From a virus: a stretch of 30,534 nt of DNA. This document shows, piece after piece, positions 9,724 through 30,534 of the stretch. The stretch spans positions 1 through 30,534 of IMG/VR virus record IMGVR_UViG_3300032087_002038, one strand, 5' to 3'. The stretch's first letter is position 1. Every line of letters starts with the position of its first letter. The position numbers and the translations under genes are program-made. A model generated the notes under the pieces. That model had not been told where the DNA came from. It was given only the letters and a program-made list of their open reading frames with translations, and searched no databases.

Positions 9724-9732
9724 AATTTTCTC

Positions 9733-12087: not shown

Positions 12088-12704
12088 CAACTAAAAGCCA
12101 ACTGTGGTGTGCCAAGTAAAATAGAATTGTCTGCTTTTATTATATAAGGCACGACATCATAAGCACTATTTGTACTTGATAAAGTTAAACCACTTCCACC
12201 AACAGTTTCATAATCTGTGCCTAGTGATATTGTACCTGCAGAACCACTTGATGGCTGTATAACTATTAAAACCCCAGTTTGCCCTACATTTGAAGCTTCT
12301 GTAGTAGGATTAGCTAAAGTATTAGCACCAGAGCCAAGCGTTAAGATAAAATTCTGGTATGTAAGAAAATCTAGCGTTTTAGTTGTAGATATTGTAGCTG
12401 TTTCTGTTGATGGTATTTGTGCTTTTGTAAAAGTTTGTGTTGCATCTGAAACTATATTGGTTGTTGTATCAGCACTTTGGTCAAAACCCATTATTGTTAT
12501 ATATGCATCATTATCTTCATTTCTGAACTTTAAAAGATTGTTTGTTTGATCATAAAAAAAGCTGTTTGCATAATTATTAGCTGGTGTTGATGTTCCACTT
12601 TGACAAGTATAAATCGCTTCTAAAATTTCATTTAAATCTCCTCTAAAAGCAGGAAATCCTTGATTTGCAACTGACAAATCACCATTTGAACTAACTTGAC
12701 TCAT
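12087..12704 (-). CDS. Tail fibre/tip-associated structural protein
   Basis: The 205-aa protein has a short N-terminal anchor-like segment (NQGFPAFRGDLNEILEAIYT) that recurs in proteins lying between the tip protein and fibre genes of marine phages. A Thr/Ser-rich beta-structured remainder follows (LGSGANTLANPTTEASNVGQ). It resembles a collar or adaptor connecting the tip protein to the large fibre. It starts 11 bp after the tip gene and overlaps the fibre gene. The role is inferred from context. Confidence 0.6.
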   Translation of the reverse strand: MSQVSSNGDLSVANQGFPAFRGDLNEILEAIYTCQSGTSTPANNYANSFFYDQTNNLLKFRNEDNDAYITIMGFDQSADTTTNIVSDATQTFTKAQIPSTETATISTTKTLDFLTYQNFILTLGSGANTLANPTTEASNVGQTGVLIVIQPSSGSAGTISLGTDYETVGGSGLTLSSTNSAYDVVPYIIKADNSILLGTPQLAFS

Positions 12705-12715
12705 ATTTTACCTTT

Positions 12716-16675: not shown

Positions 16676-17232
16676 TATCTACCCCATACAATTTCTTTAT
16701 CTTGTAAATCAGCTATAAATTCTAATCCTTTATCATTAGGAAAATCTATTTTTTGATCTTCAGATGTGTATCTTCTTTCTCTTGTTCTATCTAAATCTAT
16801 TAATCTACTTTCTGCTGAAACACTTATAGTACAGGTTTGACCACCATCATCTATATTCATTAAATCCATTCTACCACTAAATAAAAGATATGGATCTGAT
16901 ACAACAGCATTTGAACTATCTAATACTCCTAGAAAAACCTTACAAGATCTACCTTGATATGTTTCATTTAAAGCACTTGCAATTAAATCTGAAGGTATTC
17001 CAGATAAAGTTATTGTAAGATTATTAGCTTGTACTTCAGCATTTTCTATAACATTTGATACATTTAAAAAATCTCCACCACCTATATAAGTAGTTCCACC
17101 AAATGTTAGGTTACCATAACCAGTCCAAGCAACAAAATTGCCACCATCAAAAGCCAAATCAATCGCCACAAAAGGAGAAACACTATTGCTTTCAAATATT
17201 GTATTAACTGCACTTGTTACACTCCTACTCAT
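16675..17232 (-). CDS. Tail tip/baseplate hub protein (DUF2163-like)
   Basis: The 185-aa protein resembles the small hub proteins encoded between distal-tail and J-like genes. The central strands (LFSGRMDLMNIDDGGQTCTI, then SVSAESRLIDLDRTRERRYT) and the terminal SEDQKIDFPNDKGLEFIADL match the family ending in a tryptophan-rich IVWGR. It probably links the distal tail ring to the tip protein. It overlaps the distal-tail gene by 4 bp and the tip gene by 1 bp. Confidence 0.75.
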   Translation of the reverse strand: MSRSVTSAVNTIFESNSVSPFVAIDLAFDGGNFVAWTGYGNLTFGGTTYIGGGDFLNVSNVIENAEVQANNLTITLSGIPSDLIASALNETYQGRSCKVFLGVLDSSNAVVSDPYLLFSGRMDLMNIDDGGQTCTISVSAESRLIDLDRTRERRYTSEDQKIDFPNDKGLEFIADLQDKEIVWGR

Positions 17233-17858
17233 ATTGATTCTATCGCTCCAAATGTCATAGAATAAAAACTATCTTGACTAATAGACCATTGATGTTCTGG
17301 TGTATTAAGTCTAAATAATCCTTTAGCATCTGAAACTACTACAGTATCACCATCTGAAGGTGATGATCTAAGGTCTGGATATATTGTTAATGATACTTCA
17401 CCAGAACTATTAGAATTAGCATCATCTAGAACTTTGTATAATCTAGATGTTAACCCAGTACCTAATTGAATATAATCACCAGCTTTTAGATAACCTGTTT
17501 GACTTGTAGGAACTCCATCTATATTTAAAGTATCTCCAGTTTGACTTGCTCCATTAACAACTGGTGTTCCTGCTGAACTAGAAGCTGTTCCTCTTGGTAC
17601 TGAAGCATTTGGATCACCTAATAAGAATGTTCCAAATTGTCCATATAACTTTAGAAAAAAAGTATTCCATTGTTCAGCATCCTCTCTTTTCATTGGTGCT
17701 AAAGTTACATCAGCTTCAAATCTCTCACCTTGATTTCTAAATACTTGAGTTTCATAAGTAAAAGGTGATGTTGTTATTCCTGTAGAACTTCTAGCAATAA
17801 AATTTACTGAAGCTATTCCAGATACACTAGGTAAAGATAAAGGATATGTTATAGCCAT
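17229..17858 (-). CDS. Distal tail-like protein
   Basis: The 209-aa protein starts MAITYPLSLPSVSGIASVNF and contains EADVTLAPMKREDAEQWNTF with a following FFLKLYGQFGTFLLGDPNA, features of a distal-tail/minor tail family found just after tape-measure genes. A beta-rich insertion (GDTLNIDGVPTSQTGYLKAG, YIQLGTGL) resembles a small barrel. It likely forms the ring at the end of the tail tube. It lies 3 bp after the tape measure gene. Confidence 0.75.
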   Translation of the reverse strand: MAITYPLSLPSVSGIASVNFIARSSTGITTSPFTYETQVFRNQGERFEADVTLAPMKREDAEQWNTFFLKLYGQFGTFLLGDPNASVPRGTASSSAGTPVVNGASQTGDTLNIDGVPTSQTGYLKAGDYIQLGTGLTSRLYKVLDDANSNSSGEVSLTIYPDLRSSPSDGDTVVVSDAKGLFRLNTPEHQWSISQDSFYSMTFGAIESI

Positions 17859-17861
17859 AAT

Positions 17862-19448
17862 TTAAACTCCAAATGCAGAAGAAAATGCTCCACCTCTCCT
17901 CTTAGCATCTAAAACAGCACTTTTAGCCGCTTCTGATATTTGAGGAAGCATATTTAATACTTCTGTTCTAACTGTTTGAGATACTCCAGTTGATAGATTT
18001 ATTGTTTGATTAACTACTACTGGACTACCATTACCACCTAATTTATCATTTGGTACTATTGCACCACTTCTATTAGGAACAAATAATTCTGCACCTTTTT
18101 CACCTACTATATAAGGTCTGCCAGATGTAACATTTCCACCTTTTGCCATAAAGGTAGGTACTGTTGTGGCATTACTTGTAGGTGTCAAAAAAGATTGTAT
18201 CCCAGCAAATAAAGGTTCAGTAATTGATTTTCTTATTTGCATCCTTATTAAATCTTCAATAATTGAATTAGCCATATCTCTAAAAGCATCTGAAACTGAT
18301 TTTGTACCTTTAATTAATCCAACTAAACCATCTTCCATTGAAGATAATCCTCTACTAGCAACATTTTCTAATTCATTATCTAATTTTTTTGTTTCTTGAT
18401 TTAATTCAACTGTTTCAAATTTAAATTGTTGAAAAGAATTTGTAGCACCATTTAACCTTTTTGTTAAATTAGCCATTATTTTATCTTGTTGTGATGTTTT
18501 TTCATTTTGTTTTTTTGTATTTTCAACAATTAAACTTACATGACCATTCATATCCATAAATGCTTTTCCAGCATTTTCAATATTAAATGTAATTCTCTCT
18601 ATTTGCTTTTCAAATGCTTCACCAAAAGTAAATTTATTCATCTCAATACCGGCTTTTTTTGCAAGATCAACTATACCATTTAAAAAACCTCTTACTGCTG
18701 AAGATACTCCTGCAAGTCCTCTCATTATATTTACTGTTAAAAATTGTGATAATTTAGCTAATTTTGGCAAAACATTAGCTGTTATTTGTTGCCCAATACT
18801 TGAAAAAGTCCTACCTAATTTATCAAATAGATCATTAGCTTCTTCAACTGCTTTAGCTTGTTCTTGAGTAAGTGTAATTGTAACAGCATTAAATTCATCA
18901 CCTAATTGTTTAAGGTTTTTTGATCCTTGCTGTAAAGTATTGACTAAATTAACACCACTTCTACCAAATAAATCAAATGCAACTCTAACCCTATCTGCTG
19001 GATTTTCTATTTGTGTTAAAGCATCTGAAACTTCATCTAAAAGCTGTCTTGTAGGTTTTATATTATCAGAAGCATCAGTTATTTTTACTCCAAGCATCTC
19101 AAATGCTCTTAAACCAGTTCCAATTCCAGTATTTGCTTCTGATACTGCCCTTGAGAATCTAGTTAATCCTTTTTCTAATTCTTCAGAACTAGCACCAGTT
19201 TGACTAGCGGCAAATTGTAATGATTGAATTTGATTTACTGTAAGACCTAATCTAGCTGAAGATTTTGCTAATTCATCAATACTTTTTGCAAAACCTTTTA
19301 AAGCTACACCACTACCTAAAGCGGCTAATCCACCTTTTAAACTAAAAACTGCTTTACTAACTCTCTTTAATCCACCTTGAACAGAATTAAAAGCTTGTTG
19401 TGTTTTATTTAAAGCTGTAATTCTAATTTTTAGATTTGGATCTGCCAT
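17862..19448 (-). CDS. Tail tape measure protein
   Basis: The 528-aa protein starts with a basic helix and the phage tape-measure pattern (LKIRITALNKTQQAFNSVQG). Helical segments follow, including GLTVNQIQSLQFAASQTG and LFGRSGVNLVNTLQQG, a hydrophobic stretch around 225-255, and a lambda-H-like C-terminus (GGNVTSGRPYIVGEKGAELF, then VPNRSGAIVPN). It sets tail length and is injected with DNA. With about 0.15 nm per residue, 528 residues predict a tail near 80 nm, shorter than lambda; this is a rule-of-thumb inference. It overlaps the end of the frameshifted chaperone frame by 26 bp. Confidence 0.92.
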   Translation of the reverse strand: MADPNLKIRITALNKTQQAFNSVQGGLKRVSKAVFSLKGGLAALGSGVALKGFAKSIDELAKSSARLGLTVNQIQSLQFAASQTGASSEELEKGLTRFSRAVSEANTGIGTGLRAFEMLGVKITDASDNIKPTRQLLDEVSDALTQIENPADRVRVAFDLFGRSGVNLVNTLQQGSKNLKQLGDEFNAVTITLTQEQAKAVEEANDLFDKLGRTFSSIGQQITANVLPKLAKLSQFLTVNIMRGLAGVSSAVRGFLNGIVDLAKKAGIEMNKFTFGEAFEKQIERITFNIENAGKAFMDMNGHVSLIVENTKKQNEKTSQQDKIMANLTKRLNGATNSFQQFKFETVELNQETKKLDNELENVASRGLSSMEDGLVGLIKGTKSVSDAFRDMANSIIEDLIRMQIRKSITEPLFAGIQSFLTPTSNATTVPTFMAKGGNVTSGRPYIVGEKGAELFVPNRSGAIVPNDKLGGNGSPVVVNQTINLSTGVSQTVRTEVLNMLPQISEAAKSAVLDAKRRGGAFSSAFGV

Positions 19449-19919
19449 CTTCTACTATCCTAAAGTAACCATACCATTCATTTATTTCAGATAAAGTTAA
19501 ATGATCAACCTCATCTATTGTTTTGTGTAAGCGATCAGCCAAAGCATATAGGTTTAACTTTAGTTGATCGCCTTTTAGTTTTTTTCAGCTTCCTCAACAC
19601 TTGTAACTTCTCCAATAATACTAGCACCTATATTACTAAGTTTTATTGGATCAAAACCCCTAATAATAGGTTTATCAGCTACAGTAAAAGCTTTTTCTCC
19701 ATCTTCAGTTTCAAGTTTTCTTATAATAAGATCTATTACACCTTCTAAAGTCATCTCATTTAGAAAGTTTTTATACTTGTTTTGAAGATCAATAATATCT
19801 CTAGCAGTTAAAGGTTTTGAATATAGAACTAGAGGATCACCATTTTCACCCCAACCTTCTATCTCAATAACTTTTCTTTCTTTAACTGTTCTAGAAGCAA
19901 TTTCTTTTGCTAAAGACAT
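19423..19919 (-). CDS. Tail assembly chaperone GT-type fusion made by -1 frameshift
   Basis: The zero frame (114 aa, ending at 19575) is followed by a -1 frame that is open from the slippery site to a TAG at 19423-19425, adding 51 residues for a product of 165 aa. The extension includes LYALADRLHKTIDEVDHLTL and SEINEWYGYFRI. The last part closely matches the conserved tail of phage T-type chaperone extensions (L-S-E-I-x-E-W). In lambda and relatives the G:GT ratio controls tape-measure wrapping and tail-tube recruitment. The -1 extension has no own start with a ribosome site and would be untranslated otherwise. Confidence 0.85.
19531..19584 (-). promoter_or_regulatory. Programmed -1 frameshift signal: A AAA AAC plus downstream hairpin
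   Basis: On the minus strand the zero-frame codons GAA AAA AAC TAA contain the classical slippery heptamer A-AAA-AAC (19584 to 19578), and the stop follows directly. Six bases downstream (TAAAAG) is GCGATCA (19571 to 19565), which pairs with TGATCGC (19537 to 19531) to form a 7-bp stem with one further G-U pair. Position and spacing match stimulatory elements of -1 frameshifting. Confidence 0.85.
19575..19919 (-). CDS. Tail assembly chaperone G-like (zero-frame product)
   Basis: The 114-aa protein starts MSLAKEIASRTVKERKVIEI and has the fold pattern of phage tail chaperones (PLTARDIIDLQNKYKNF, then LEGVIDLIIRKLETEDGEKA). It ends EEAEKN with TAA immediately after the A-AAA-AAC heptamer. It lies between the tail tube and tape-measure genes, the expected location. 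It is not part of the finished virion in known systems and acts during tail assembly. Confidence 0.85.
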   Translation of the reverse strand: MSLAKEIASRTVKERKVIEIEGWGENGDPLVLYSKPLTARDIIDLQNKYKNFLNEMTLEGVIDLIIRKLETEDGEKAFTVADKPIIRGFDPIKLSNIGASIIGEVTSVEEAEKN

Positions 19920-19927
19920 AAATCACC

Positions 19928-20314
19928 TTAAACAGTAGTTTTAGTTAAACCACCAGATCCTTGAAAGCTTATTTCTGCTTCAACAATACCATCAAAAGAT
20001 GAATTTACATTAAATGCAGTAACAAAAGCAGTTCCACTATAATAAGTATCACCACTTGTATTGCCTTCTGGATAAACTTCTAATGTAATACTAGAACCAA
20101 CTGAACAAGCTACTTGCCCAGAATCTGTTTCATCCCAATTTACTGAAGCACTTCCATCAAATTGCTTTAATCCTAAAAGGTATGATCTTGCACTATCACC
20201 CATTTTAGTTTTCTCGATTGTATCAGCAGTTTCATTAATACTGAAACTTTTGATTTCTCCTAGAGTATCAGAACCAATTTTAATAGTTCCCTCTGATCCT
20301 GCGTGTGTAGCCAT
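19928..20314 (-). CDS. Major tail tube protein
   Basis: The 128-aa protein starts MATHAGSEGTIKIGSDTLGE and is beta-rich with the tube-protein layout: an N-terminal strand pair (IKSFSINETADTIEKTKMGD), a central region (FDGSASVNWDETDSGQ) and a C-terminal strand (AFVTAFNVNSSFDGIVEAEI). This resembles lambda V/phi13-type tube subunits without an extra Ig domain. Hexameric rings stack to form the tail tube. It lies directly before the chaperone gene, as in lambda-like tail modules. Confidence 0.82.
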   Translation of the reverse strand: MATHAGSEGTIKIGSDTLGEIKSFSINETADTIEKTKMGDSARSYLLGLKQFDGSASVNWDETDSGQVACSVGSSITLEVYPEGNTSGDTYYSGTAFVTAFNVNSSFDGIVEAEISFQGSGGLTKTTV

Positions 20315-20327
20315 AATTTATCTCCTT

Positions 20328-20771
20328 CTAAATAGCAGTTTCCACATCATTTTCTTTAGCACGATAAAGTGCTTCTATAGTAAATCTTCCTATAGCAATA
20401 GGCTGTTCACCTTCTCCACTATATTCAGATTCAAAGGATGTTATTTTGCTATCTTTAACAAGATTATTCAAAGTAACATCACCCGCTAAAGCTTCTTCAA
20501 CTTCAACAGATATATCATCTAATGTATTATCATAATCAGCAGTAGCTTTTACATATGCTTCTACACCAATCTCTAGTATCCTTGTAGTGCTTCTAGGAAC
20601 AGTTATTGTATCATAATCAGTTGTTTCACTCTTTGTAAAGATACATAAACCCGGAAGATCATTACTTTCTAATGGATAAATTCTTGATCTGAATACTCTT
20701 GATCCAGTAGTAGTTAATCCTGTTAAATCAGTTACTACTCTATCTCTTATCTGTTCTCTTAGATGTGCCAC
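20328..20771 (-). CDS. Tail terminator (lambda U-like)
   Basis: The 147-aa protein begins MAHLREQIRDRVVTDLTGLT and carries SRVFRSRIYPLESNDLPGLC, a typical start for tail terminator/gpU-like proteins. An alternating beta/alpha body follows (RILEIGVEAYVKATADYDNT, LDDISVEVEEAL). The family caps the tail tube when it reaches the length set by the tape measure and mediates joining to the head. It overlaps the upstream connector gene by one base. Confidence 0.8.
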   Translation of the reverse strand: MAHLREQIRDRVVTDLTGLTTTGSRVFRSRIYPLESNDLPGLCIFTKSETTDYDTITVPRSTTRILEIGVEAYVKATADYDNTLDDISVEVEEALAGDVTLNNLVKDSKITSFESEYSGEGEQPIAIGRFTIEALYRAKENDVETAI

Positions 20772-21082
20772 TAAACAACCTCTAATAAAAGATTAGTCAT
20801 CCCTGTTCCATCATCTTGAACTACTCTTATTTTATAAGCTACTGAATTTATTGTAATATCATCTCCTTCAGTTGCACTTGATACATCTGCTGTTCTGCAC
20901 ATAAATCTAGGCTGTTGAACTGAAACACCTACTGTGCCAGTTGCATCAACTTCAATATGTTCATTATCAAAAATGCCTTTAATATCAACTGCTGAACCAC
21001 CTTGAACAGTATAACTAGCTGTAGATCCAAAATCATCTACATCTAAAAATATTAATCTATCATCAGCAGTTTCTACAGCCAT
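20771..21082 (-). CDS. Head-tail joining protein (lambda FII-like)
   Basis: The 103-aa protein contains LIFLDVDDFGSTASYTVQGG near the start, and VDIKGIFDNEHIEVDATGTV followed by GDDITINSVAYKIRVVQDDG. These are the hallmarks of the FII/neck family sometimes annotated as an ATP-binding sugar transporter-like phage protein. It should form the interface between head connector and tail terminator. One-base overlaps with both neighbours indicate coupled translation. Confidence 0.78.
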   Translation of the reverse strand: MAVETADDRLIFLDVDDFGSTASYTVQGGSAVDIKGIFDNEHIEVDATGTVGVSVQQPRFMCRTADVSSATEGDDITINSVAYKIRVVQDDGTGMTNLLLEVV

Positions 21083-21276
21083 TATTCACCTTCTGGAGTT
21101 TTTAATTCTTTAATTGCTTTATTACTTAATTTTTTTGTTTTCTTTTGAGTGCTTTTTTCAGCATAACCTCTAGCTATAAGTTTCTCAGCTACTCTATCAT
21201 CAAGATCTACAGTTGTACCTTTATGAAGATTACCACCAGTTCCTACATAGCATTTTTCTAAAATTTTAACTTCCAT
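21082..21276 (-). CDS. Small head/connector-region protein
   Basis: The 64-aa product starts MEVKILEKCYVGTGGNLHKG and has a compact beta/helix N-terminal domain (VDLDDRVAEKLIARGYAEKS), with a basic Lys/Thr tail (TQKKTKKLSNKAIKELK). Similar small proteins lie between capsid and connector genes in many siphoviruses and are generally unassigned. AAAGG precedes the start. It lies just after the putative attenuator hairpin. Confidence 0.6.
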   Translation of the reverse strand: MEVKILEKCYVGTGGNLHKGTTVDLDDRVAEKLIARGYAEKSTQKKTKKLSNKAIKELKTPEGE

Positions 21277-21287
21277 AATAAACCTTT

Positions 21288-21318
21288 ATAAAATGGGGAG
21301 CAGTTTAATCTACTCCCC
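21288..21318 (-). terminator. Hairpin after capsid gene, attenuator or weak terminator
   Basis: On the minus strand GGGGAG pairs with CTCCCC (21318-21313 with 21300-21295), with two further inner A/G-C/T pairs after a single mismatch and a loop of about six. It is followed by ATTTTAT. It lies in the only real gap between the capsid and connector genes. The short U-rich tail suggests partial termination that would leave more capsid than connector mRNA. Confidence 0.55.
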
Positions 21319-21329
21319 TAATTACCTAA

Positions 21330-22649
21330 CTAGGCTGTTGATACCTCATTAGTGATTGCAAAAGATACTGCATTTCTAACTGCAACATCGACTTCTTGAT
21401 GTACATTTATTCTTACAGTTCCAGCTTTACCACCAGAATAAGGATCTACTAAGATTGATGGTGCTCCAAATAAGCCAATTAATAACTGACTAAAATCACC
21501 AAAAATCATTGCACTAGCATCTGTTCCACCATCACCCGGATTTAGGTTTGATGGCACATTTGTTGAAAATGCTATTGGATAACCATATATGCTATTCCAA
21601 GGATCATTTAACAACATAACACTATCAGTTGAAGCAACTCTTGATGTATTTGCTAACTTACTCTTTACCTTTGCATTTGTAAGGTAACCTAATGCATTAG
21701 CATTTACTACACCATTATCTTCCTCAACAAGCTTTGCAAGATCTGTTATATCTGCCCAAGTTAAAGCGGCTACATCTGTACCTGCTGATATATCTAAATC
21801 ATTAACACCAGATGTTTGTAAAATGCCTGTTGGATTTCCAGATGATCCACTACCATTGATAGCAGCTAATTCAATAGCATCTGCTACTGATCTTAGTAAG
21901 TCATCTTGAACAACTTGCTCAATTGCTGGGACACTTTCCATCATAAGTAGTCTAGAAATTTCTGCAAAAGCACCTAATGTTCTTGGTTGTAATGTAACAC
22001 CATCATCAGCTTGAGATTGATCAGATACATCACCTGCTTCTTCAACAAATCCAGCAGTTGCACCAGTTGATATTTTAGGCATTCTTATGCGATTTGTTAA
22101 ACCAGAAATATAAGTTGTTCCTAAACCAGATAGAACTTGTCTTGCTCTTAGTGCTTCAATAAACATATCTGGTCTTTGAATTGTTGGTACAAAGTTATCT
22201 GTTACAGCTTCACCAGATATAGCACCTGTTGCGGCTGTTGTCATAACTCCAGATCTTTGACCCCAAGCAAAACCCGGAACATAAAAACCATTTGGTTGTT
22301 TTCCTGTTCTACTTGCAATTTCATCAGAAAGTTCATGTTCATAACTTGCTTCTGATCTTTTACCAGTAATCTGAGATCTAATCATTCTACCTAAAGAATA
22401 CTCTCTTTTCTCTTTTAGTGGAGCATCAATAAGATCTGCTGGTGTTTCTAGTGGTTTATCATTGCCAATAGCATCTAATAACTCACCTCTAAATGCTTCA
22501 ATAGAAATACCTCTACCTAAAGCATCTTCACCTAGATCAGCCTTATTGTGCTTTCTTGCCAAAGTCATAATGTCTTTAGCATTTCTTGACGCAACTTTTT
22601 GAGCATCAGCTTCAATTTTTGCCACATCAATTTCATTTTTTTCAGACAT
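21330..22649 (-). CDS. Major capsid protein, separate product from internal start
   Basis: Inside the fusion gene an ATG at 22649 (MSEKNEIDVAKIEADAQKVA) is preceded seven bases upstream by AAAGGAGA, one of the strongest ribosome sites in the window. It lies just after the protease domain and gives a 439-aa protein of normal length for an HK97-type capsid subunit, with a helical delta-like N-terminal region (about 1-100) before the main fold. The cell can thus make many capsid subunits for each protease fusion, which would solve the stoichiometry problem of the fused gene. Translation from this site is inferred. Confidence 0.65.
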   Translation of the reverse strand: MSEKNEIDVAKIEADAQKVASRNAKDIMTLARKHNKADLGEDALGRGISIEAFRGELLDAIGNDKPLETPADLIDAPLKEKREYSLGRMIRSQITGKRSEASYEHELSDEIASRTGKQPNGFYVPGFAWGQRSGVMTTAATGAISGEAVTDNFVPTIQRPDMFIEALRARQVLSGLGTTYISGLTNRIRMPKISTGATAGFVEEAGDVSDQSQADDGVTLQPRTLGAFAEISRLLMMESVPAIEQVVQDDLLRSVADAIELAAINGSGSSGNPTGILQTSGVNDLDISAGTDVAALTWADITDLAKLVEEDNGVVNANALGYLTNAKVKSKLANTSRVASTDSVMLLNDPWNSIYGYPIAFSTNVPSNLNPGDGGTDASAMIFGDFSQLLIGLFGAPSILVDPYSGGKAGTVRINVHQEVDVAVRNAVSFAITNEVSTA

Positions 22650-24143
22650 AATATTATCTCCTTTAATCTGAATGGTTGATTTTAATGTTTCAGAAGTTGA
22701 TCTGCCCACACCCACCATATTTGACTGATCTGCTGGAATGCTAACAATACTTACTTCCATTGGTGTACTCTTAATTCTAACAATGTTATCATCATCATCA
22801 TCTTCAGTACGATCTATTTTGCCATCTACACGATAGCCTACAGAGATATTTTGTCTTATACCATCTGTAACATCATTGAACACTTCAGAAGCTTGTTCAC
22901 CTTTTCCAAAGCGAACTAATGCACGTAATCTACCTGCATCTTCATCAAGTTCTACTGATTCCACAACTCCAATTTGCTTTTCTAGATCATGATCTAGTAA
23001 CAAAGGTGCTCTACCAGAGTTTAAAAATTTTAAATCCATATGTTCAGCTTTATGGGACATTACTTCCATCCCAAAATCTCTTTTAACTGGTTCTTCAGAT
23101 GATACACCAACTCTAACTGTTCTGTTCATCTCATCTACAACCTCTTTATCAAAATGATAAGATCTAAAAGCTAAATCATCTTTTGAATATTGCTTTCTTT
23201 CCTTCATGCCTGCGTCATGATCTCCTATCTTTTCTTCTTCATGATCTGCTTTATCTTCTTCATCTTCTTCATGTCCACCACTTGTTTCCATTTCTTCTTC
23301 TTCATGATGTTTGGCAAAAGTGATTGTATACTTATCATCATCCTCTTGCACATCCACGATATGTCTTTTATCCATTTGATTATCCATTCTTGAATCTCCC
23401 TCATTTGAAGTTTCATTATCTTTCTCCACAAATTTAGCATAAAAATCTTCATTAGTTAATAGTTCACTTTTTTGTTCTGTTTCAGTTTTCATAGGATGTC
23501 CTTCTGGTAATAAATCTGTATCATGTTTCCCACTTCTATATCTTCCATTTCTTACAGCATATAAGAAACTGTTAACTCTTGCCATTGCCCATTGTTCTTC
23601 AGAACTTACATTAGGTCTAACTGATTGAGGATTGGTATTATATGCACCTACTCCCCTTTTATAAACTTTTGCTAACATACCTAAAGTAACTTTTTTAGAT
23701 TTAGCTGATCCGTGTTCTTCATTGTGTTCTTTAACTTTATTTTCTAAAGCAGTAATTGTTTTATCTGGAAATTCATCCTCTATTGCTCTAGTTTCACCTT
23801 CATCAATCTTATCAAGTTGTGCATCTTTACCTCTTGCCCAAGATTGACCCGCATCACCACCCCATAATGCCCAAGCAATGCGACCTGCTGAAGGATACCC
23901 ATCTTCACCTACATCAAATCCTTCACCCTCTTTATCAACTTCATGTCTACTAAAATAAGAATGCATCCTTCGTACTGTTCTTGGTGATAGTTCTTGTTTG
24001 TTTACTAATTGTCTTGCTCTAGCTACACCAACAGCAGTTCCACCTCTACCAAACTCTTTTCTCCAGTCTAATCCTTTTTGTGCTTCTTCTTTCATTCCAT
24101 CAGTAGGAATTAGATTTATTTCTTCTCCTTTATACTTCGCCAT
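21330..24143 (-). CDS. Fusion of N-terminal marine-phage domains, HK97-type prohead protease and major capsid protein
   Basis: A single 937-aa frame. Residues about 1-115 include DWRKEFGRGGTAVGVARARQ and GYPSAGRIAWALWGG. About 150-220 resembles DUF5824 (MLAKVYKRGVGAYNTNPQSV, EEQWAMARVNSFLYA). About 265-310 is a Glu/Asp/His-rich linker. About 325-480 is a U35 prohead protease, with candidate catalytic His in LLLDHDLEKQIG (about 385) and Ser in NISVGYRVDGK (about 434). From about 499 comes the HK97-fold capsid protein (GNPTGILQTSGV, ending RNAVSFAITNEVS). Of three tandem ATGs the third is chosen for its distance from AAGGGG. The N-terminal and acidic parts may act as scaffold and be removed by self-cleavage. 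Confidence 0.88.
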   Translation of the reverse strand: MAKYKGEEINLIPTDGMKEEAQKGLDWRKEFGRGGTAVGVARARQLVNKQELSPRTVRRMHSYFSRHEVDKEGEGFDVGEDGYPSAGRIAWALWGGDAGQSWARGKDAQLDKIDEGETRAIEDEFPDKTITALENKVKEHNEEHGSAKSKKVTLGMLAKVYKRGVGAYNTNPQSVRPNVSSEEQWAMARVNSFLYAVRNGRYRSGKHDTDLLPEGHPMKTETEQKSELLTNEDFYAKFVEKDNETSNEGDSRMDNQMDKRHIVDVQEDDDKYTITFAKHHEEEEMETSGGHEEDEEDKADHEEEKIGDHDAGMKERKQYSKDDLAFRSYHFDKEVVDEMNRTVRVGVSSEEPVKRDFGMEVMSHKAEHMDLKFLNSGRAPLLLDHDLEKQIGVVESVELDEDAGRLRALVRFGKGEQASEVFNDVTDGIRQNISVGYRVDGKIDRTEDDDDDNIVRIKSTPMEVSIVSIPADQSNMVGVGRSTSETLKSTIQIKGDNIMSEKNEIDVAKIEADAQKVASRNAKDIMTLARKHNKADLGEDALGRGISIEAFRGELLDAIGNDKPLETPADLIDAPLKEKREYSLGRMIRSQITGKRSEASYEHELSDEIASRTGKQPNGFYVPGFAWGQRSGVMTTAATGAISGEAVTDNFVPTIQRPDMFIEALRARQVLSGLGTTYISGLTNRIRMPKISTGATAGFVEEAGDVSDQSQADDGVTLQPRTLGAFAEISRLLMMESVPAIEQVVQDDLLRSVADAIELAAINGSGSSGNPTGILQTSGVNDLDISAGTDVAALTWADITDLAKLVEEDNGVVNANALGYLTNAKVKSKLANTSRVASTDSVMLLNDPWNSIYGYPIAFSTNVPSNLNPGDGGTDASAMIFGDFSQLLIGLFGAPSILVDPYSGGKAGTVRINVHQEVDVAVRNAVSFAITNEVSTA
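22657..22664 (-). promoter_or_regulatory. Internal ribosome-binding site for capsid protein
   Basis: AAAGGAGA on the minus strand, seven bases before the in-frame ATG at 22649. It encodes Lys-Gly-Asp in the fusion, and sits exactly at the domain boundary between protease and capsid. Most other in-frame ATGs in this gene lack such a site. Confidence 0.7.
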
Positions 24144-25614
24144 CATCATCCCCTTGTGTTATTTCAGCTTCTACAGGGAACTTTTGCCCAAAAGGTTCAA
24201 AAGCCATACTTAATCCATTTTGTGTTGCTATTTGCTTATCTTTTGCAATTTGTGAGAAGGTTTCTTCTACATCTCTACCATAGTGAGCCGCAACATCTTG
24301 ATGTGATAGTATTCCATTTTGTAAACCTACAACAGAAGCATTTATTTCTTTCAATGGATCTATCCAATTCCATCCACGACCTCTGAAAACAACATTATCA
24401 TTAAATTTATCATATTTGCTTGATGGTAATGGTATAGATCCAAAGTCCATAGATGATATGAGCCAATTTTGAAAAATTGGTTCTACAAAGTGCTGAATTA
24501 AGAATTGTTGCAATGCTCTATAATGATCTCTCTCATCTAATGCACCTTGCCTAATAGATGAGTAATTAACAGACGTTAGATCACTACTGAGAGCCGCATA
24601 AGATACATTTAGTCCACTAGCTATACCTTTTAAAATAGCACCCTCAAACTCTCCAAAAGAGGTATTTGGTCTATCTGGATCAAACATCTTAATATCATAT
24701 CCGGCAGGTAATTGATGAAAAGAACCCGGTTCAACATCTATAATTGGCTGAAAGTTTTCATGTAAATCATCACCCATATAATCATCTGAATGAGGTGTTG
24801 TAAGCATTCCCATTTTAGAAGCTGATATTCTAGCCGCAATTATTTCTGCTTCTCTATATGCACCTAACATTTTTAAACTAGATATTACTGAAGCCATAAA
24901 TGGTTCACCTCTAGTCTGATAAGTCCTAGAAGGCATAAAAACATGAATCATTTCTTCTGCTGGAACTCTTATATGCTTTTGTGCTACTTGTCTTGAATAA
25001 TGTTTATCTCCCGGATGTGTTGTAAGTACATGATAAGCTACTGGTTTATGAAATTTATCTAATTCAACTCCCATTCTAATTTGATTACCATTTGAAAGTA
25101 GTTCATTCTTCTTTTCATCAATCATATCTGGTTCTATAAGCTGAATAGCAAAATTATCTTTATATCTTCTACCAGAAAGCTTTTTTACAAATACTTCACC
25201 ATCTCTAACTAAAGTTTCAATGGCATATTTCTGACAATCCAACCAAGATAACCTTCCATCTACTGTAGGATTTCCTAATCTTCCCCAAGACTTAAAAGCA
25301 TTTTCTATAATTGTATTGCCCGGAGCATCTAAAGTTCCATCATCATTTGTTGCCTTAACTTGTAAATGAAAACCTTTATCACCAACTATATTTGTTTTCA
25401 TTAAGTTAACATATCTTCTAGCAAACTCATTATCTCTAACAAGTTCTCTTGATCTGTTTCTTAATACTTCTAAATTATATCTAAGCTGACTATCTGCACT
25501 AAATGATGATTGAATAAAATCACTAAATAATCTTCCACCTCTAGCACCAGCATAAGTTCTTTTCTTTATTTTTTTTGTTTCAGCTTTACCTTTTAGAAAA
25601 TCAAATAATCCCAT
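24130..25614 (-). CDS. Portal protein, lambda B family
   Basis: The 494-aa protein shows the lambda-type portal pattern: SADSQLRYNLEVLRNRSREL and DNEFARRYVNLMKTNIVGDK near the N-terminus, then WLDCQKYAIETLVRDGEVFV, LIEPDMIDEKKNE, and the ending PIFQNWLISSMDFGSIPLPS with HYGRDVEETFSQIAKDK. A dodecameric portal forms the DNA entry channel at one capsid vertex and docks the terminase. It overlaps the protease/capsid fusion gene by about 14-20 bp. The length is close to that of lambda gpB. Confidence 0.93.
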   Translation of the reverse strand: MGLFDFLKGKAETKKIKKRTYAGARGGRLFSDFIQSSFSADSQLRYNLEVLRNRSRELVRDNEFARRYVNLMKTNIVGDKGFHLQVKATNDDGTLDAPGNTIIENAFKSWGRLGNPTVDGRLSWLDCQKYAIETLVRDGEVFVKKLSGRRYKDNFAIQLIEPDMIDEKKNELLSNGNQIRMGVELDKFHKPVAYHVLTTHPGDKHYSRQVAQKHIRVPAEEMIHVFMPSRTYQTRGEPFMASVISSLKMLGAYREAEIIAARISASKMGMLTTPHSDDYMGDDLHENFQPIIDVEPGSFHQLPAGYDIKMFDPDRPNTSFGEFEGAILKGIASGLNVSYAALSSDLTSVNYSSIRQGALDERDHYRALQQFLIQHFVEPIFQNWLISSMDFGSIPLPSSKYDKFNDNVVFRGRGWNWIDPLKEINASVVGLQNGILSHQDVAAHYGRDVEETFSQIAKDKQIATQNGLSMAFEPFGQKFPVEAEITQGDDDGEV

Positions 25615-25615
25615 A

Positions 25616-26200
25616 TTAAAATCTCGTTACGATTGTTGCACCAGTTGGTTTATTGTGTTTGATTCTTTCTTTTCTATTATGCATAGTAACTTCTCTTTTG
25701 TAATAGTTTCTCCACTCAACTAATTCATTTGGACTCATTTTAGAAAGTGATCTTCCATTAATAGAATAAGATAAAACATCTGCATCTGCTCTACCTTGAA
25801 GAACTGTTTCTATTTTATCTAGCATTATCATAAAATGTTCTCTTGGATCAGCATTATTATCATCCAAATCAACTCTAATATCCCATTCACCAGTATTTAA
25901 AACAATTCTATTTGATGAAGATGTTTCAACTACCTCTAATTGCCAGTGATAATGACCATCATCATAACCAGTGCTTACAGCAGAAGTAATTGTAAAAAGA
26001 TAATCATCATCTATAGTTGTACTAGCAATCTTGAATTCACTAGTTCCACCACCTCTAATTCTAGCTACATATTCCATTGTATGAGTGCTATTAGGATAAT
26101 CAGTAGAGTATTCATCTAGTCTCCATTGAACAAAATCACCTTTTACAAATTCTAATGGTTCATCTAATGGAGCATTTGCAGAATTAAAAAGATTTGCCAC
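25616..26200 (-). CDS. gpW-like head-tail joining protein with extra N-terminal beta domain
   Basis: The 194-aa product starts at GTG (AAGGA nine bases upstream). Residues about 1-115 are a beta-sandwich-like domain (LEFVKGDFVQWRLDEYSTDY, WQLEVVETSSSNRIVLNTGE). The C-terminal part, about 120-185, resembles lambda gpW (MLDKIETVLQGRADADVLSY, INGRSLSKMSPNELVEWRNY, KREVTMHNRKE). gpW seals DNA in the head and helps attach the tail. Its location between terminase and portal matches lambda order. The N-terminal extension is not part of classical gpW and its role is unknown. Confidence 0.72.
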   Translation of the reverse strand: MANLFNSANAPLDEPLEFVKGDFVQWRLDEYSTDYPNSTHTMEYVARIRGGGTSEFKIASTTIDDDYLFTITSAVSTGYDDGHYHWQLEVVETSSSNRIVLNTGEWDIRVDLDDNNADPREHFMIMLDKIETVLQGRADADVLSYSINGRSLSKMSPNELVEWRNYYKREVTMHNRKERIKHNKPTGATIVTRF

Positions 26201-26241
26201 TTTTACAGTTCCTTTTTGAAAAAATTTTGCTTGTCAAGAGT

Positions 26242-26247
26242 ATTATA
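26242..26247 (-). promoter_or_regulatory. Possible promoter -10 upstream of head genes
   Basis: The 80-bp gap between terminase and the gpW-like gene contains a perfect TATAAT on the minus strand (26247 to 26242) in AT-rich DNA, about 42 bp before the GTG start. No convincing -35 is present at 16-18 bp (TAGTTA-like). It may provide extra transcription of the capsid and tail genes. Confidence 0.35.
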
Positions 26248-26280
26248 ACCTAAAATATTAAATTTAACTATAGTGTAAAT

Positions 26281-28137
26281 TTATCTCCAATTATTTATAA
26301 AATTTCTACCACTATAAACAGGTTTTCTTCTAATTGGTTGTGATATTTCTTCTTTTTCTACCTTTTTTTCTTTTTCCATATTAATTTTATCACTTATAGC
26401 ATTTAAATTAAGATTTAAGATACTAAATGCACCAATAGAGTACACTCTACAATCTAAAGCTTCATTTCTAGTTCTAGTTTTAACAAATTCTCTTCTAGGA
26501 AAGCCTTTATGGTACTTTGTTACTATTTTTTCACTACTTGCCAACTGTTTAAAATATTCATCTGGTCTATCATCTGGAAAATGACAGTAACCTGCACCAA
26601 CCTCAGTTATCTTTAATCTTGAAAAAACAAGTTCTTTAATATTATCAACACCTAAAGTAAATAATCTTATTTTTCCAATATTGTTTCTGGTTGGTCTAGA
26701 TACTATAGGTCTTGTTTCTCCAGCCATACCTTTGATAGCAAATATTCTTTTTCCTTCTCTTGGTCTTACAAAATTGTAAACAGCTTGAGTATAATGACCA
26801 CCACTATCAACACAAGTTGCCCTAATACCTATTGTTCTACCATCTTCAGTTTTATAGGTAGATTTTAGGATTGTATCTAGATCATTCCATAACTGAGGTG
26901 TAGAAGGATCACCATATAATGTCCTATAGTCAATGCTCCAACTTTCTTCTTCCCTTCCCCAACCTACAACTTCTAATTCAATACGATCATCTTGAACATC
27001 AACACCACAAGTAATAACTAAAATATTACTATCTAATAATTCTCCAAAAGGTTCTGATCTTTCAGCTACAGCAAAATCATCTACTCTCTCTCCTTGATCT
27101 TCCCAACTCTCAGCTAAATAAGTATTTGTCCACACTCTTAAAGTTTCTGTCATTTTTTTAGCTGATAAGAAATCTCTTACTCCATCTGCTAAAGGTGTCC
27201 AACTAGAATATAATCCAGATATATGAAATCCAGCTACACCTTTAAAATCTTCAGTAGCTTCCCATTTACCATTCCTAATTGCTCTAAATCTTTTAGCATC
27301 ATCCCAAATAGATCCACATCCTTCACAAACATAAGAAGCTGTTTCTGGTTTATCTTTTTCCCATTTAACATTAGACCATTTTAATTTCTGTTCTTCTCCA
27401 CAATCTTCACAAGAAACTAAATAATATCTTTTATCTGATTCTTCAAAAGCTTGTTCAATTCTACTAGCACCTTTATTAGTTGGTGTTGATACCATAACTA
27501 TTTTTCTATTCCAGAAAGTTGCAGATCTTTTTCTTGCTAATTGAATAGGATCACCTTCACTCCCTGCAGAAGGTGGATATCTATCAACCTCATCACATAA
27601 AACAATTCTTATAGGTCTAGAAGCTAATCCAGATGGTGAATTAGATCCTACTAAAGATACATGACCTCCGGGAAATACTTTATGTGTTGTAGTATTATTA
27701 GCATCTCTAGATCTAGGATCTTTTACTTTACCTTTTAAACAAGGTGTATCCCTCAACATTGGTGCAAGTCTATCTTTAGAAAAACTTTGTGCCATTTCTA
27801 AAGTTGGTTGCACAACTAACATAGGTGCTGGGTCTTGAGAGATATGGTATCCAACAATATTTAAAAGCATCTCAGTTTTGCCAACTTGAGATCCAGCCAT
27901 TATAACAATATCTTTAATTGATGGATCTGAAATACTATCCATTATGCCTTGCTGATAATTTGCCCTAGAAGTATACCATCTCCCCGGTTCAGCACTAGCT
28001 TCTGATGATAGTCGCCTTTCTTGGTCTGCCCATTGACTTATTTTTAACTTTGGTGGTGGCTTCAGTACTGCCATTGCTTCCACTACTGCTCTTTTCAGAC
28101 CTTGCTTGTTTTGTAGGTGTATAATTTGATAATTCAT
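26281..28137 (-). CDS. Terminase large subunit, GpA family
   Basis: The 618-aa protein has the GpA features in order: KPPPKLKISQWADQERRLSS, Walker A AGSQVGKTE (about 81-89), Walker B VLCDEVDRYP with DEVD at 182-185, coupling motif STPT (about 217-220), a zinc ribbon CEDC...CEGC (243-246 and 271-274), and a nuclease domain with Asp380 (CGVDVQDDRIELE), Asp444 (CVDSGGH) and LDCRVYSIGA near 569. It translocates DNA into the prohead and cuts genome ends. The first ATG overlaps the small-subunit gene by 143 bp; a later ATG (28074, MAVLKPPPKL) reduces this but would trim residues typical of the family. Confidence 0.93.
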   Translation of the reverse strand: MNYQIIHLQNKQGLKRAVVEAMAVLKPPPKLKISQWADQERRLSSEASAEPGRWYTSRANYQQGIMDSISDPSIKDIVIMAGSQVGKTEMLLNIVGYHISQDPAPMLVVQPTLEMAQSFSKDRLAPMLRDTPCLKGKVKDPRSRDANNTTTHKVFPGGHVSLVGSNSPSGLASRPIRIVLCDEVDRYPPSAGSEGDPIQLARKRSATFWNRKIVMVSTPTNKGASRIEQAFEESDKRYYLVSCEDCGEEQKLKWSNVKWEKDKPETASYVCEGCGSIWDDAKRFRAIRNGKWEATEDFKGVAGFHISGLYSSWTPLADGVRDFLSAKKMTETLRVWTNTYLAESWEDQGERVDDFAVAERSEPFGELLDSNILVITCGVDVQDDRIELEVVGWGREEESWSIDYRTLYGDPSTPQLWNDLDTILKSTYKTEDGRTIGIRATCVDSGGHYTQAVYNFVRPREGKRIFAIKGMAGETRPIVSRPTRNNIGKIRLFTLGVDNIKELVFSRLKITEVGAGYCHFPDDRPDEYFKQLASSEKIVTKYHKGFPRREFVKTRTRNEALDCRVYSIGAFSILNLNLNAISDKINMEKEKKVEKEEISQPIRRKPVYSGRNFINNWR

Positions 28138-28438
28138 TTAAAGCTTCATGTATTTGTTTTTCTATTATGTCCTGTATTATACTAACATCAGTTTCATTTG
28201 AAACAAGAGGTGCAGTTATTGTTGGTAAACTTAATAACTTTGCCCTCATACTTGATAATGCATTTATCCATTCATTCTTCACCTCATCAGTTGGAACTAA
28301 TTCACCTTTAGCTTTAAGTAATTCTAGTTCAGTTAACTCAGCATCTGCTTCCATTTTCCTTGCTCTAGCAAGATTATAGTCTGGATCAGTTATTGGTGGT
28401 CTGCCCATTTTTGTATTTATTTTTTCTGTTGCTTCCAT
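27995..28438 (-). CDS. Terminase small subunit (Nu1-like)
   Basis: The 147-aa protein carries the helical core of phage small terminases (ARARKMEADAELTELELLKA, GELVPTDEVKNEWINALSSM, RAKLLSLPTITAPLVS). It lies directly upstream of the large subunit. It recognises the packaging site and recruits the large subunit. Two GRP motifs (MGRPPI near residue 11 and MGRPRK near residue 138) look like minimal AT-hooks and may help bind AT-rich minor grooves; this is inference. The Ser/Thr-rich C-terminal tail is encoded in the region that overlaps the large-subunit frame. Confidence 0.82.
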   Translation of the reverse strand: MEATEKINTKMGRPPITDPDYNLARARKMEADAELTELELLKAKGELVPTDEVKNEWINALSSMRAKLLSLPTITAPLVSNETDVSIIQDIIEKQIHEALNELSNYTPTKQARSEKSSSGSNGSTEATTKVKNKSMGRPRKATIIRS

Positions 28439-28526
28439 AATTTTCTACTTTTTTTTAAAAGTCTGTCGCTAGAAATACTTTGCGATCACGAATTACCCAC
28501 AATAGTTTGCCCTAGTAAGTACCTTT
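28439..28526. other. 88-bp gap upstream of small terminase, possible packaging-site region
   Basis: This is one of the few non-coding gaps in the late operon. It contains a locally less AT-rich segment (GTCTGTCGCTAG, then GCGATCACGAATTACCC). Lambda cos lies next to the small terminase gene, so the gap is a reasonable place to look for a cos or pac site. No clear terminase-binding repeats or dyad are visible. Confidence 0.2.
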
Positions 28527-29306
28527 TTATCTAGCACTAGCTAAAGCTTCTCTTAATCTCTGCTCAAACCTTGCTCTAAATCCTTTTGTTCTGTTGTTTA
28601 CTAACTTCTCTACAATGGTAGGAAATGGAAATTTCTTATTATATCTTGCATCATCCTTATACTTGGCAACCATTCTAATCTTTTGATTATCTCCAGACCT
28701 TTCCCATATACCTTCATAAACTTCACCAAACCTACCTTTAGGTACGCCTTTAAAATATTTAGATTTATTATTTATAATATTAGATCTAGTTGCTCTAGTG
28801 ATGTTACCATATTTATTAACTCTTAATTTATTTGTAGGTATCAGTATAGCTTTTCTTTTAGGTTTCCTTACACCACCATCTACTTGAAACTTCATATATG
28901 ATCCTTGAAGCTTATCAATAAAAACAAATGCAGTTAAATAGTTTGTTGTTCCTTTTCTTTTATTAGACTTAATAAACTTAAATCCTCTCTTAGTAAAAGG
29001 TACAGCACCACCAGTAAATATTCTATCAGCAAATCTAGGAAGATCTTTTCTAGCTATACTAAAAGCTGTATCATTCAATGCCCTTGATGTAGCAAAAGGT
29101 ATTTGTCTTTTTTGTGTTCTACTTAGTTGTCTTGTAACTTCTTTTATATTAGCTGATACATTTATATTAAGACCTTGTATCTTACCTTTAACAGATGACT
29201 TTACTCTATCTCTTAAAAGATCATTACCTTTATTACCAGCAAGCAATCTTACTGCTGTAGTTCTAGCAACTGCTCCAGCAATAATAGGTATTAATGGTGC
29301 TACCAT
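28527..29306 (-). CDS. Minor tail/tail-completion protein (lambda Z-like)
   Basis: The 259-aa basic protein contains QLSRTQKRQIPFATSRALND followed by TAFSIARKDLPRFADRIFTG and RGFKFIKSNKRKGTTNYLTA, the pattern of lambda Z-type tail-completion proteins in marine phages. Later parts (YMKFQVDGGVRKPKRKAILI, then EGIWERSGDNQKIRMVAKYK) fit the same family. Such proteins act at the head-proximal end of the tail. Here the gene lies upstream of the terminase instead of with the tail connectors, an unusual position compared with lambda. A short hydrophobic N-terminus (VAPLIPIIAGAVARTTAVRL) precedes the domain. Confidence 0.7.
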   Translation of the reverse strand: MVAPLIPIIAGAVARTTAVRLLAGNKGNDLLRDRVKSSVKGKIQGLNINVSANIKEVTRQLSRTQKRQIPFATSRALNDTAFSIARKDLPRFADRIFTGGAVPFTKRGFKFIKSNKRKGTTNYLTAFVFIDKLQGSYMKFQVDGGVRKPKRKAILIPTNKLRVNKYGNITRATRSNIINNKSKYFKGVPKGRFGEVYEGIWERSGDNQKIRMVAKYKDDARYNKKFPFPTIVEKLVNNRTKGFRARFEQRLREALASAR

Positions 29307-29500
29307 TTAAATCCCAACTGATCTTTTTTTATCTCATTCATATCATCACTAGAATAATTTTTATTGTTGATTAAATCAATCTCTTTCATCATTTGTGCAT
29401 AATACTTGGGATCTTTTTTCTTAGCTTCTTTCATCAACTGTTCATATCTATGATCAAGTACAGCTTGTTGATGTGCATCTAATCCATTATCAAAACTCAT
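29300..29500 (-). CDS. Hypothetical small helical protein
   Basis: The 66-aa product is charged and helical (HQQAVLDHRYEQLMKEAKKK, DPKYYAQMMKEIDLINN), with no Cys or membrane segment. It overlaps the methyltransferase gene by 4 bp and the Z-like gene by 7 bp, so it is a coupled member of the leftward operon. No family is recognised. Confidence 0.6.
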   Translation of the reverse strand: MSFDNGLDAHQQAVLDHRYEQLMKEAKKKDPKYYAQMMKEIDLINNKNYSSDDMNEIKKDQLGFKW

Positions 29501-29907
29501 ACTTCATCACCCCAAGCATCCCAACCTAATTTTCTATCTCTTGCAAACATTTCTAATTTAGGAGATGGAGACATTTCATCTACAAGATCAAAAAAACAAT
29601 TTGGTTTTGTTGAATGCTTTCTTGGTGCATTTGTATTAATCCAATTTAATTTTCCACATTTTAAAAACTTTTGCATTGGTTTACCAAAAAATCCCAACAA
29701 ACAAAATTCAGTTGCAAATTTATAAGCAAAATTTGGTGTCATTCCATTATGTTTAGTCCACACCAAAGTTAAATGATAATTAACACACCATTCCTCAAAA
29801 ACATCAAATGTTTGTCTTAAAAATTTATTAGTTGTCCAACAATAAATATGACAACCTACATTAGCTATTTTATCTAATTTTATTTGTTTTATTTTATCTA
29901 AAGACAT
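29497..29907 (-). CDS. MT-A70 adenine methyltransferase, N-terminally truncated at a sequence junction
   Basis: The 136 residues match the C-terminal two thirds of MT-A70-type N6-adenine methyltransferases: CHIYCWTTNKFLRQTFDVFE, LTLVWTKHNGMTPNFAYKFA, NAPRKHSTKPNCFFDLV and the terminal KLEMFARDRKLGWDAWGDEV. The catalytic DPPW motif that should lie upstream is absent. The frame remains open above the ATG to a TAG at 29953-29955, reading QNLRKKQAQKLNYKTMSLDK, and KLxYKTMSLxxIK is the family sequence that normally follows DPPW by some 15-25 residues. So the real start has been lost and the remnant is probably inactive. The break coincides with the change in base composition. Confidence 0.8.
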   Translation of the reverse strand: MSLDKIKQIKLDKIANVGCHIYCWTTNKFLRQTFDVFEEWCVNYHLTLVWTKHNGMTPNFAYKFATEFCLLGFFGKPMQKFLKCGKLNWINTNAPRKHSTKPNCFFDLVDEMSPSPKLEMFARDRKLGWDAWGDEV

Positions 29908-29953
29908 TGTTTTATAATTCAGTTTTTGTGCTTGTTTTTTTCTGAGATTCTGC

Positions 29954-29961
29954 TAAACTAC
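29954..29961 (+). promoter_or_regulatory. TAAACTAC element before ORF at 29966
   Basis: TAAACT fits the -10 consensus TAnnnT and ends six bases before the ATG, so a transcript would begin at or next to the start codon. TTGTTT lies 16 bp upstream as a possible -35. No Shine-Dalgarno is present. The same 8-mer precedes the next two ORFs. Confidence 0.55.
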
Positions 29962-29965
29962 GTTC

Positions 29966-30091
29966 ATGAAAATAAAAAATGTATATCACTTCTACTCAAG
30001 CGATTGGATGTTCTCAGGCACTCTCGAAGAGTGTGAAGCATGGATCTCTAAGATGGACCCAAAAAATCTTGGGTGGTTCGTGATCGAATAA
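29966..30091 (+). CDS. Small protein (41 aa) in the GC-richer right-end segment
   Basis: The frame encodes MKIKNVYHFYSSDWMFSGTL followed by EECEAWISKMDPKNLGWFVI and E. The pattern strand-TLEECEAWI-helix-WFVIE resembles tiny phage or plasmid proteins with a beta-alpha-beta fold, without a known function. Codon choice (CTC, GAG, GGG, GTG, ATC) differs from the AT-rich genes to its left. No ribosome site is visible. Start selection rests on the conserved upstream element. Confidence 0.6.
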   Translation: MKIKNVYHFYSSDWMFSGTLEECEAWISKMDPKNLGWFVIE

Positions 30092-30133
30092 AAAAAGATT
30101 CTTTTTCTCTTTACAGAACACAAAAAAAATTAG

Positions 30134-30141
30134 TAAACTAC
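30134..30141 (+). promoter_or_regulatory. TAAACTAC element before ORF at 30146
   Basis: The second copy ends four bases before the ATG (six bases from the TAAACT hexamer). TTTACA lies 18 bp upstream of the hexamer and is close to the -35 consensus, making this the best promoter match of the three. Confidence 0.6.
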
Positions 30142-30145
30142 AGCC

Positions 30146-30331
30146 ATGGAAAAACAAAGAACCAATAAAGAAATCGCAGAAGCAGCAGCAAGAAATCTCG
30201 CTAAGTGGAATGAGGCAACTCGCGTTGAGAACAAGCCAAGCGAAGGAAGCTATGTCGAAAGAGTGATCGCAGCTCGCAAATGGGCAGCAGAAAAGGAAGC
30301 AAAGATCGCTGAGTTCATGCAAAAAAAATAA
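30146..30331 (+). CDS. Small Ala-rich helical protein (61 aa)
   Basis: The product (MEKQRTNKEIAEAAARNLAK, then YVERVIAARKWAAEKEAKIA) is highly charged and predicted to be entirely helical, possibly coiled coil. It has no Cys, membrane segment or known motif. Codons such as ATCGCA, CTCGCT and CGCGTT are unlike the AT-rich phage genes. It is followed by an A/T-rich gap without a convincing terminator. Function unknown. Confidence 0.6.
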   Translation: MEKQRTNKEIAEAAARNLAKWNEATRVENKPSEGSYVERVIAARKWAAEKEAKIAEFMQKK

Positions 30332-30363
30332 AAAATAAATCTTTTTAAAACCCCCAAAACCTT

Positions 30364-30371
30364 TAAACTAC
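30364..30371 (+). promoter_or_regulatory. TAAACTAC element before ORF at 30379
   Basis: The third copy, with the hexamer ending nine bases before the ATG. A C-run (AAAACCCCCAAAACC) lies in the spacer, and the -35 is weak (CTTTTT at 17 bp). The match to the other two copies is exact over eight bases. Confidence 0.5.
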
Positions 30372-30378
30372 TACCCAC

Positions 30379-30534
30379 ATGAAAGAACTACTAAAACTAC
30401 TCTTCCTCGCCTTTCTCCCGTACGCTGGAGTCGCAGCCCTTTGTCTCAATGAGATCGACAAGAGCAAAGAATTCAAGCAGCGCAACGAGGAGCAGCTCAG
30501 AAAGTACAACCAAGAACTCATGGAAAAAACCCAA
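30379..30534 (+). CDS. Membrane-anchored small protein, C-terminus cut by the window edge
   Basis: The visible 52 residues start MKELLKLLFLAFLPYAGVAA, a hydrophobic N-terminal segment (about 4-23) that is a membrane anchor or uncleaved signal. A charged helix follows (LNEIDKSKEFKQRNEEQL, then RKYNQELMEKTQ) with coiled-coil character. This layout resembles inner-membrane spanin-like or small secreted proteins, but the frame continues beyond the window and no family can be named. G+C-rich third positions (CTC, GCC, CAG, AAG) match the rest of the right-end segment. Confidence 0.6.
   Translation, partial: MKELLKLLFLAFLPYAGVAALCLNEIDKSKEFKQRNEEQLRKYNQELMEKTQ

Follow-up and report, generated by a model that had tools for sequence, protein, structure and literature searches.

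An MT-A70 methyltransferase gene cut at the junction of two phage sequences in a marine virus contig

Do the last genes of a virus contig belong to the genome to which they are attached? The question is raised by the window analysed here, which is the entire IMG/VR record IMGVR_UViG_3300032087_002038 (30,534 bases), so that position 30534 is the contig end. Close to this end, a leftward gene of the MT-A70 family loses its start, and an initial annotation, made from the letters alone, placed there a break that could be a prophage or island boundary, a point of recombination between phages or a chimeric assembly. The step in codon composition described in that annotation is borne out by the third-position GC, which is 0.50, 0.39 and 0.60 in the three right-end ORFs, whereas the other 43 ORFs range from 0.06 to 0.43, most of them lying under 0.25. 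With 40.4%, the tail has a high overall GC content, yet a cytosine methylase gene comes close to it with 39.9%, the highest value outside the tail. This C-5 cytosine methylase gene (window 1922-2680), which has the top GC of the phage part (~40%) and adjoins genes for a replication initiator and a PDDEXK nuclease, is likely to be a later acquisition. The right end of the window comprises the following features:

28485..28497, minus strand: putative cos site GGTAATTCGTGAT, between the terminase small subunit and minor tail genes
28527..29306, minus strand: minor tail protein gene (PHROG 1924, 1.9e-32), the last gene before the terminus
29300..29500, minus strand: 66-aa ORF, sharing 4 bases with the MT-A70 gene and 7 bases with the minor tail gene
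29497..29942, minus strand: 3' part of an MT-A70 family adenine methyltransferase gene, with ~44 N-terminal residues, including DPPW, missing
29928..29942, no strand assigned: junction block TGCTTGTTTTTTTCT, common to both parents with one T/C difference, with the switch inside it
29943..30534, plus strand: foreign tail, 592 bases, from an unrelated phage of ~41% GC
29966..30091, plus strand: foreign ORF1, hypothetical, 41 aa, with a promoter-like TAAACTAC box just upstream; 100% amino acid identity to contigs L033 and L034
30146..30331, plus strand: foreign ORF2, hypothetical, 61 aa, with a TAAACTAC box upstream; 68% amino acid identity to L032
30379..30534, plus strand: foreign ORF3, incomplete at the contig end; 59 aa in its relative

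The cut methyltransferase gene and its relatives

The leftward frame that ends at 29497 is open to a TAG at 29953-29955 and reads *QNLRKKQAQKLNYKTMSLDK; on the reach of this frame and the lack of DPPW, the translation and the Pfam match agree with the initial annotation. The product matches the Pfam MT-A70 profile (PF05063) with 5.2e-20 over profile positions 16-172 (72.5 bits against a cut-off of 23.9) and PHROG 359 with 2.6e-28. Because the Pfam match spans these positions, only the DPPW-bearing N-terminal part is absent from the protein; the catalytic motif is not found in the contig, the frame passing into foreign DNA before reaching it. As assembled, the gene is a fragment and not a functional member of the family. 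The tight overlaps of the 66-aa ORF with both of its neighbours argue that the methyltransferase gene is part of the left genome.

When IMG/VR was scanned for the 136-residue protein, 29 MT-A70 loci were obtained, in 27 of which the upstream frame is readable. Of these 27 relatives, 26 continue into the DPPW or DPAW region, or into the same region with TGA at the tryptophan codon; in the remaining one, L018, the contig begins inside the motif, leaving just the last proline and the TGA. The window protein is 83-93% identical to those of L002-L007, all six of which enter DPPW or its TGA variant, and the codon differences from L002 comprise 31 synonymous and 10 nonsynonymous ones. DNA identity to these relatives stops (BLASTN) at 29943 for L002, L003, L005, L006 and L007, and at 29939 for L004; past this point, KNI, SMSGK and DPPW are encoded in the relatives but not in the window. 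Among isolated phages, tblastn with a composite query (the start of a relative followed by the remainder from the window) gave only hits below 60% identity, and a search of bacterial genomes with a DPPW-region pattern gave nothing.

In four of the relatives (L003, L004, L018 and L022), belonging to at least two diverged clades, the tryptophan codon of DPPW is TGA (CCA TGA), and the reading frames on both sides of it are conserved where present. Upstream of the TGA, L003, L004 and L022 still encode MT-A70 sequence (KKYNTIVLDPP) and not foreign DNA. An alternative genetic code in which TGA specifies tryptophan was considered for these four contigs and rejected: their other genes contain no homologue-conserved in-frame TGA, and the other in-frame TGA matches are antisense or lie beyond gene ends. 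A search for tRNAs on the four contigs found none. Recurrent inactivation, read-through or, perhaps, conversion to an inactive partner subunit are possible explanations of the TGA; tandem MT-A70 paralogues are present in L014, L015, L022 and L023.

A second phage and the point of switch

Compared separately by BLASTN, the right end turns out to have a parent of its own. Window 29923-30534 aligns with 90.2% nucleotide identity, over 624 columns, to positions 7095-7711 of L033 and 7060-7676 of L034 (IMGVR_UViG_3300023180_007779 and 3300018424_001068, respectively), which encode the same three ORFs with the same promoter-like boxes, and the scans with ORF2 and ORF3 and with a degenerate ORF1 pattern retrieved these two IMG/VR contigs only. 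The two are 100% identical over their 5,952-base overlap and thus represent one virus population. Unlike the window, they come from a phage with genes for a sigma-70 region 2 protein, PhoH (~35% identical to that of roseophages such as CRP-4 and SIO1) and DUF932; neither carries MT-A70, and the match sits in the middle of both contigs, preceded upstream of the switch by a non-coding and repeat-rich stretch of ~400 bases that has no relation to the window. ORF3 is 100% identical at the protein level across the 52 residues present, and the codon differences in ORF1 and ORF3 are 11 synonymous and 0 nonsynonymous. Searches of isolated phages with window 28500-30534 (BLASTN) and with ORF1 and ORF2 (tblastn) detected no relatives; the BLASTN hits of the tail in this set were dismissed as short chance matches.

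The TAAACTAC boxes are located at window positions 29954, 30134 and 30364 and at L032 positions 3817, 4810, 4989 and 5225. In the foreign phage, three small ORFs in succession have such a box 4-8 bases 5' of their start codons; the fourth box of L032 is farther from its ATG, and one box has TTTACA 18 bases more upstream. Promoter-like boxes so near the ATG suggest that these genes may be nearly leaderless.

By homology, the left parent can be followed as far as 29943 and the right parent from 29923 onwards. These limits place the switch within the shared block 29928-29942, slightly to the left of the break at ~29941-29955 that had been proposed initially. The block is a T-rich 15-mer that reads TGCTTG[T/C]TTTTTTCT; across it, the left relatives have TTTTCTGCTTGTTTTTTTCTTTTAATATT, the window TTTTTGTGCTTGTTTTTTTCTGAGATTCTGC and the right relatives TTTTTTATGCTTGCTTTTTTCTGAGATTCTGC. 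When the 15-mers of L002 and L034 were compared, only 10 of 53 million pairs matched with at most one mismatch (~2e-7 per pair), so close a match being so rare that its position at the break is no accident and the join must have used the shared word. On both sides, purifying selection is still visible up to the break, with no decay, which leaves an artefact or an extremely recent event as the origin of the junction. In IMG/VR, the exact 33-base junction word matched the window alone, this exact-match scan being insensitive to sequence variants and to any near-identical records withheld from the collections.

The left phage, its terminus and its probable continuation

The left 29.9 kb of the window belong to an AT-rich relative of the CRP-822-type roseophages, a group defined by the isolates CRP-811, CRP-831 and CRP-406 (Wu et al. 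2025, PMC12629253). The large terminase subunit, TerL, is 59-62% identical to those of the Roseobacter phages CRP-811, CRP-82x, CRP-831 and CRP-406, and over 9154-28438 the gene order is collinear with CRP-811 and CRP-406 (tblastn), with homologous TerL, portal, capsid and tail proteins; judging by this collinearity and identity, the window would have its affinity with the CRP-822-type group. Like the members of the group, with their genomes of 29-33 kb, it proceeds from lysis through tail, capsid and portal to terminase genes and, like CRP-406, it has the minor tail gene upstream of the gene for the small terminase subunit, TerS. The GC content of the window is 32%, compared with 43-53% in the isolates (PMC12629253) and, unlike these, the window as assembled has a cut MT-A70 gene, a foreign tail and no helicase that could be seen, DNA helicase being a core gene of the group (PMC12629253).

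Homologues of the minor tail protein adjoin the terminus in L040, L041, L042 and CRP-406; the IMG/VR scan with the window's own minor tail protein found no relative. The TCTAGCGACAGA motif is matched at 54 terminase loci, and 23 contigs start precisely 24 bases ahead of the motif, their first letters being GGTAAC or a variant thereof. Contig L045 starts with CGCTCTTCCGATCT, which we take to be the end of an Illumina adapter, directly followed by GGTAATTCGTGAT, and the right ends of L040, L041 and L014 stop on a related 13-mer, GGTTATTCGCGAC; the same 13-mer follows the first base of L044, which forms the left end of the L040 contig. Such a distribution of contig ends is most readily compatible with a cos site whose 13-base 5' cohesive ends were filled in during library preparation. 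The window runs across this site, which implies that the sequenced DNA included molecules with joined ends. The present analysis would thus map the cohesive ends of the CRP-822-type group, and the main text of PMC12629253 contains no mention of cos or cohesive ends.

Among the window ORFs checked, no helicase was found, the contig being incomplete exactly where its relatives carry this gene, and the helicase regions of CRP-811, CRP-406 and L040 had no match among the window proteins. The record IMGVR_UViG_3300037963_000715, which contains the loci L015, L040 and L044, resembles the window in its succession of MT-A70, further genes, minor tail, cos, TerS, TerL, portal and capsid, and differs from it in that the MT-A70 gene is intact (180 aa, with DPPW) and preceded by a tandem paralogue and a primase-helicase; the order in L040 is nuclease, primase-helicase, MT-A70 paralogue and intact MT-A70, before the minor tail gene. 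The place of the foreign DNA is taken in L040 by the primase-helicase and the first 44 residues of MT-A70. From this gene order and the missing helicase, we infer that the true sequence to the right of 29942 is probably the MT-A70 start followed by a replication segment that rejoins window position 1. Two other records derive from the same phage as the window, namely IMGVR_UViG_3300031841_000216 (L045; 99.93% DNA identity over 12,214 bases), which stops at the cos site (28497), and IMGVR_UViG_3300031841_004028 (L125; 100% over 8,023 bases), which stops at 1086; both are without MT-A70 and the tail.

Origin of the junction

The two parts of the contig have separate, mutually exclusive relatives and meet at a word of 15 bases with one difference between the relatives of the two parents. 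Among the options offered by the initial annotation, these observations support a chimeric assembly: with a probability of roughly 0.88, the contig is a technical chimera of two unrelated phages, made in assembly or library preparation. To the left of ~29935, the genome of a CRP-822-type marine phage would have been assembled across its joined cos ends up to a stop inside MT-A70; to the right, a 592-base piece of another phage would have been attached, with the near-identical T-rich word serving as the bridge. Conceivably, the assembler followed this short word at a low-coverage contig end; alternatively, the template may have been switched during amplification. The real path would lead through the DPPW-containing start of MT-A70 into the replication genes, including the helicase not found in the window. 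In simulated virome assemblies, chimeric contigs arise commonly (PMC3901335), and we infer that the join arose in the tube or the computer and not in the cell. Against such an origin, it can be held that a 15-base word may be shorter than the k-mers of the assembler, that the near-identical strain contigs L045 and L125 stop short of the MT-A70 gene, and that illegitimate recombination at short homologies does occur in phages.

A genuine and very recent event of illegitimate recombination, in which two unrelated marine phages met in one cell, is, accordingly, the alternative to be taken most seriously, even if it appears improbable. Its product would be a mosaic genome with a dead MT-A70, the catalytic end of which has been replaced, and three transplanted small genes. 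The coincidence of the switch with a microhomology is what illegitimate recombination produces, the three genes retain their upstream TAAACTAC boxes, and a dead or altered MT-A70, with TGA at the catalytic tryptophan codon, occurs in four relatives. Nevertheless, the technical chimera is much favoured over a mosaic because the foreign piece is just 592 bases at a contig end, the join lies in the shared word, the MT-A70 gene is cut through its catalytic core, there is no decay, and the junction occurs in no other record; moreover, beyond the shared word, no relatedness was detected between the two phages, and the expected replication genes are missing too.

A stable natural arrangement, in which related phages of this lineage share both a short MT-A70 and the right-end genes, is hardly credible. 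The TGA codons imply that short or altered MT-A70 products may exist, but three of the four relatives concerned keep MT-A70 sequence upstream of the TGA, and the right-end ORFs are present at 0 of the 29 MT-A70 loci, so that the relatives sharing the whole stretch, which had been named as the sign of a genuine arrangement, did not turn up. The compositional step that brought a prophage or genomic island boundary into consideration is real, but the window is a whole virus record, an integrase is reported to be missing in almost all members of the group (PMC12629253), and a peptide scan of 84,980 bacterial and archaeal species genomes found no relative of ORF3. Since the DNA on either side is that of a phage and has phage relatives of its own, this option falls away almost entirely.

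Given the evidence that favours a technical chimera, the right-end genes are very probably foreign to the left genome. Window 29943-30534 should be taken out of the virus record, the three genes it contains should not be counted among those of a CRP-822-type phage, and the short MT-A70 should be regarded as a cut gene, not as a new form of methyltransferase. The case also shows how, in a virus database, a contig end of chimeric origin can be marked by a shared word of 15 bases.

Another switch is seen near the other end of the window, close to the point at which L125 stops (1086): a further contig, L126, is 95% identical to the window over 245 bases (L126 1-245) and then changes at window 1085. 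Past this point, L126 encodes podovirus-like tail genes on the other strand, and the switch sequence codes for FEEFWKN; in a different sample, window 1085-1086 thus probably represents a second point prone to chimeras.
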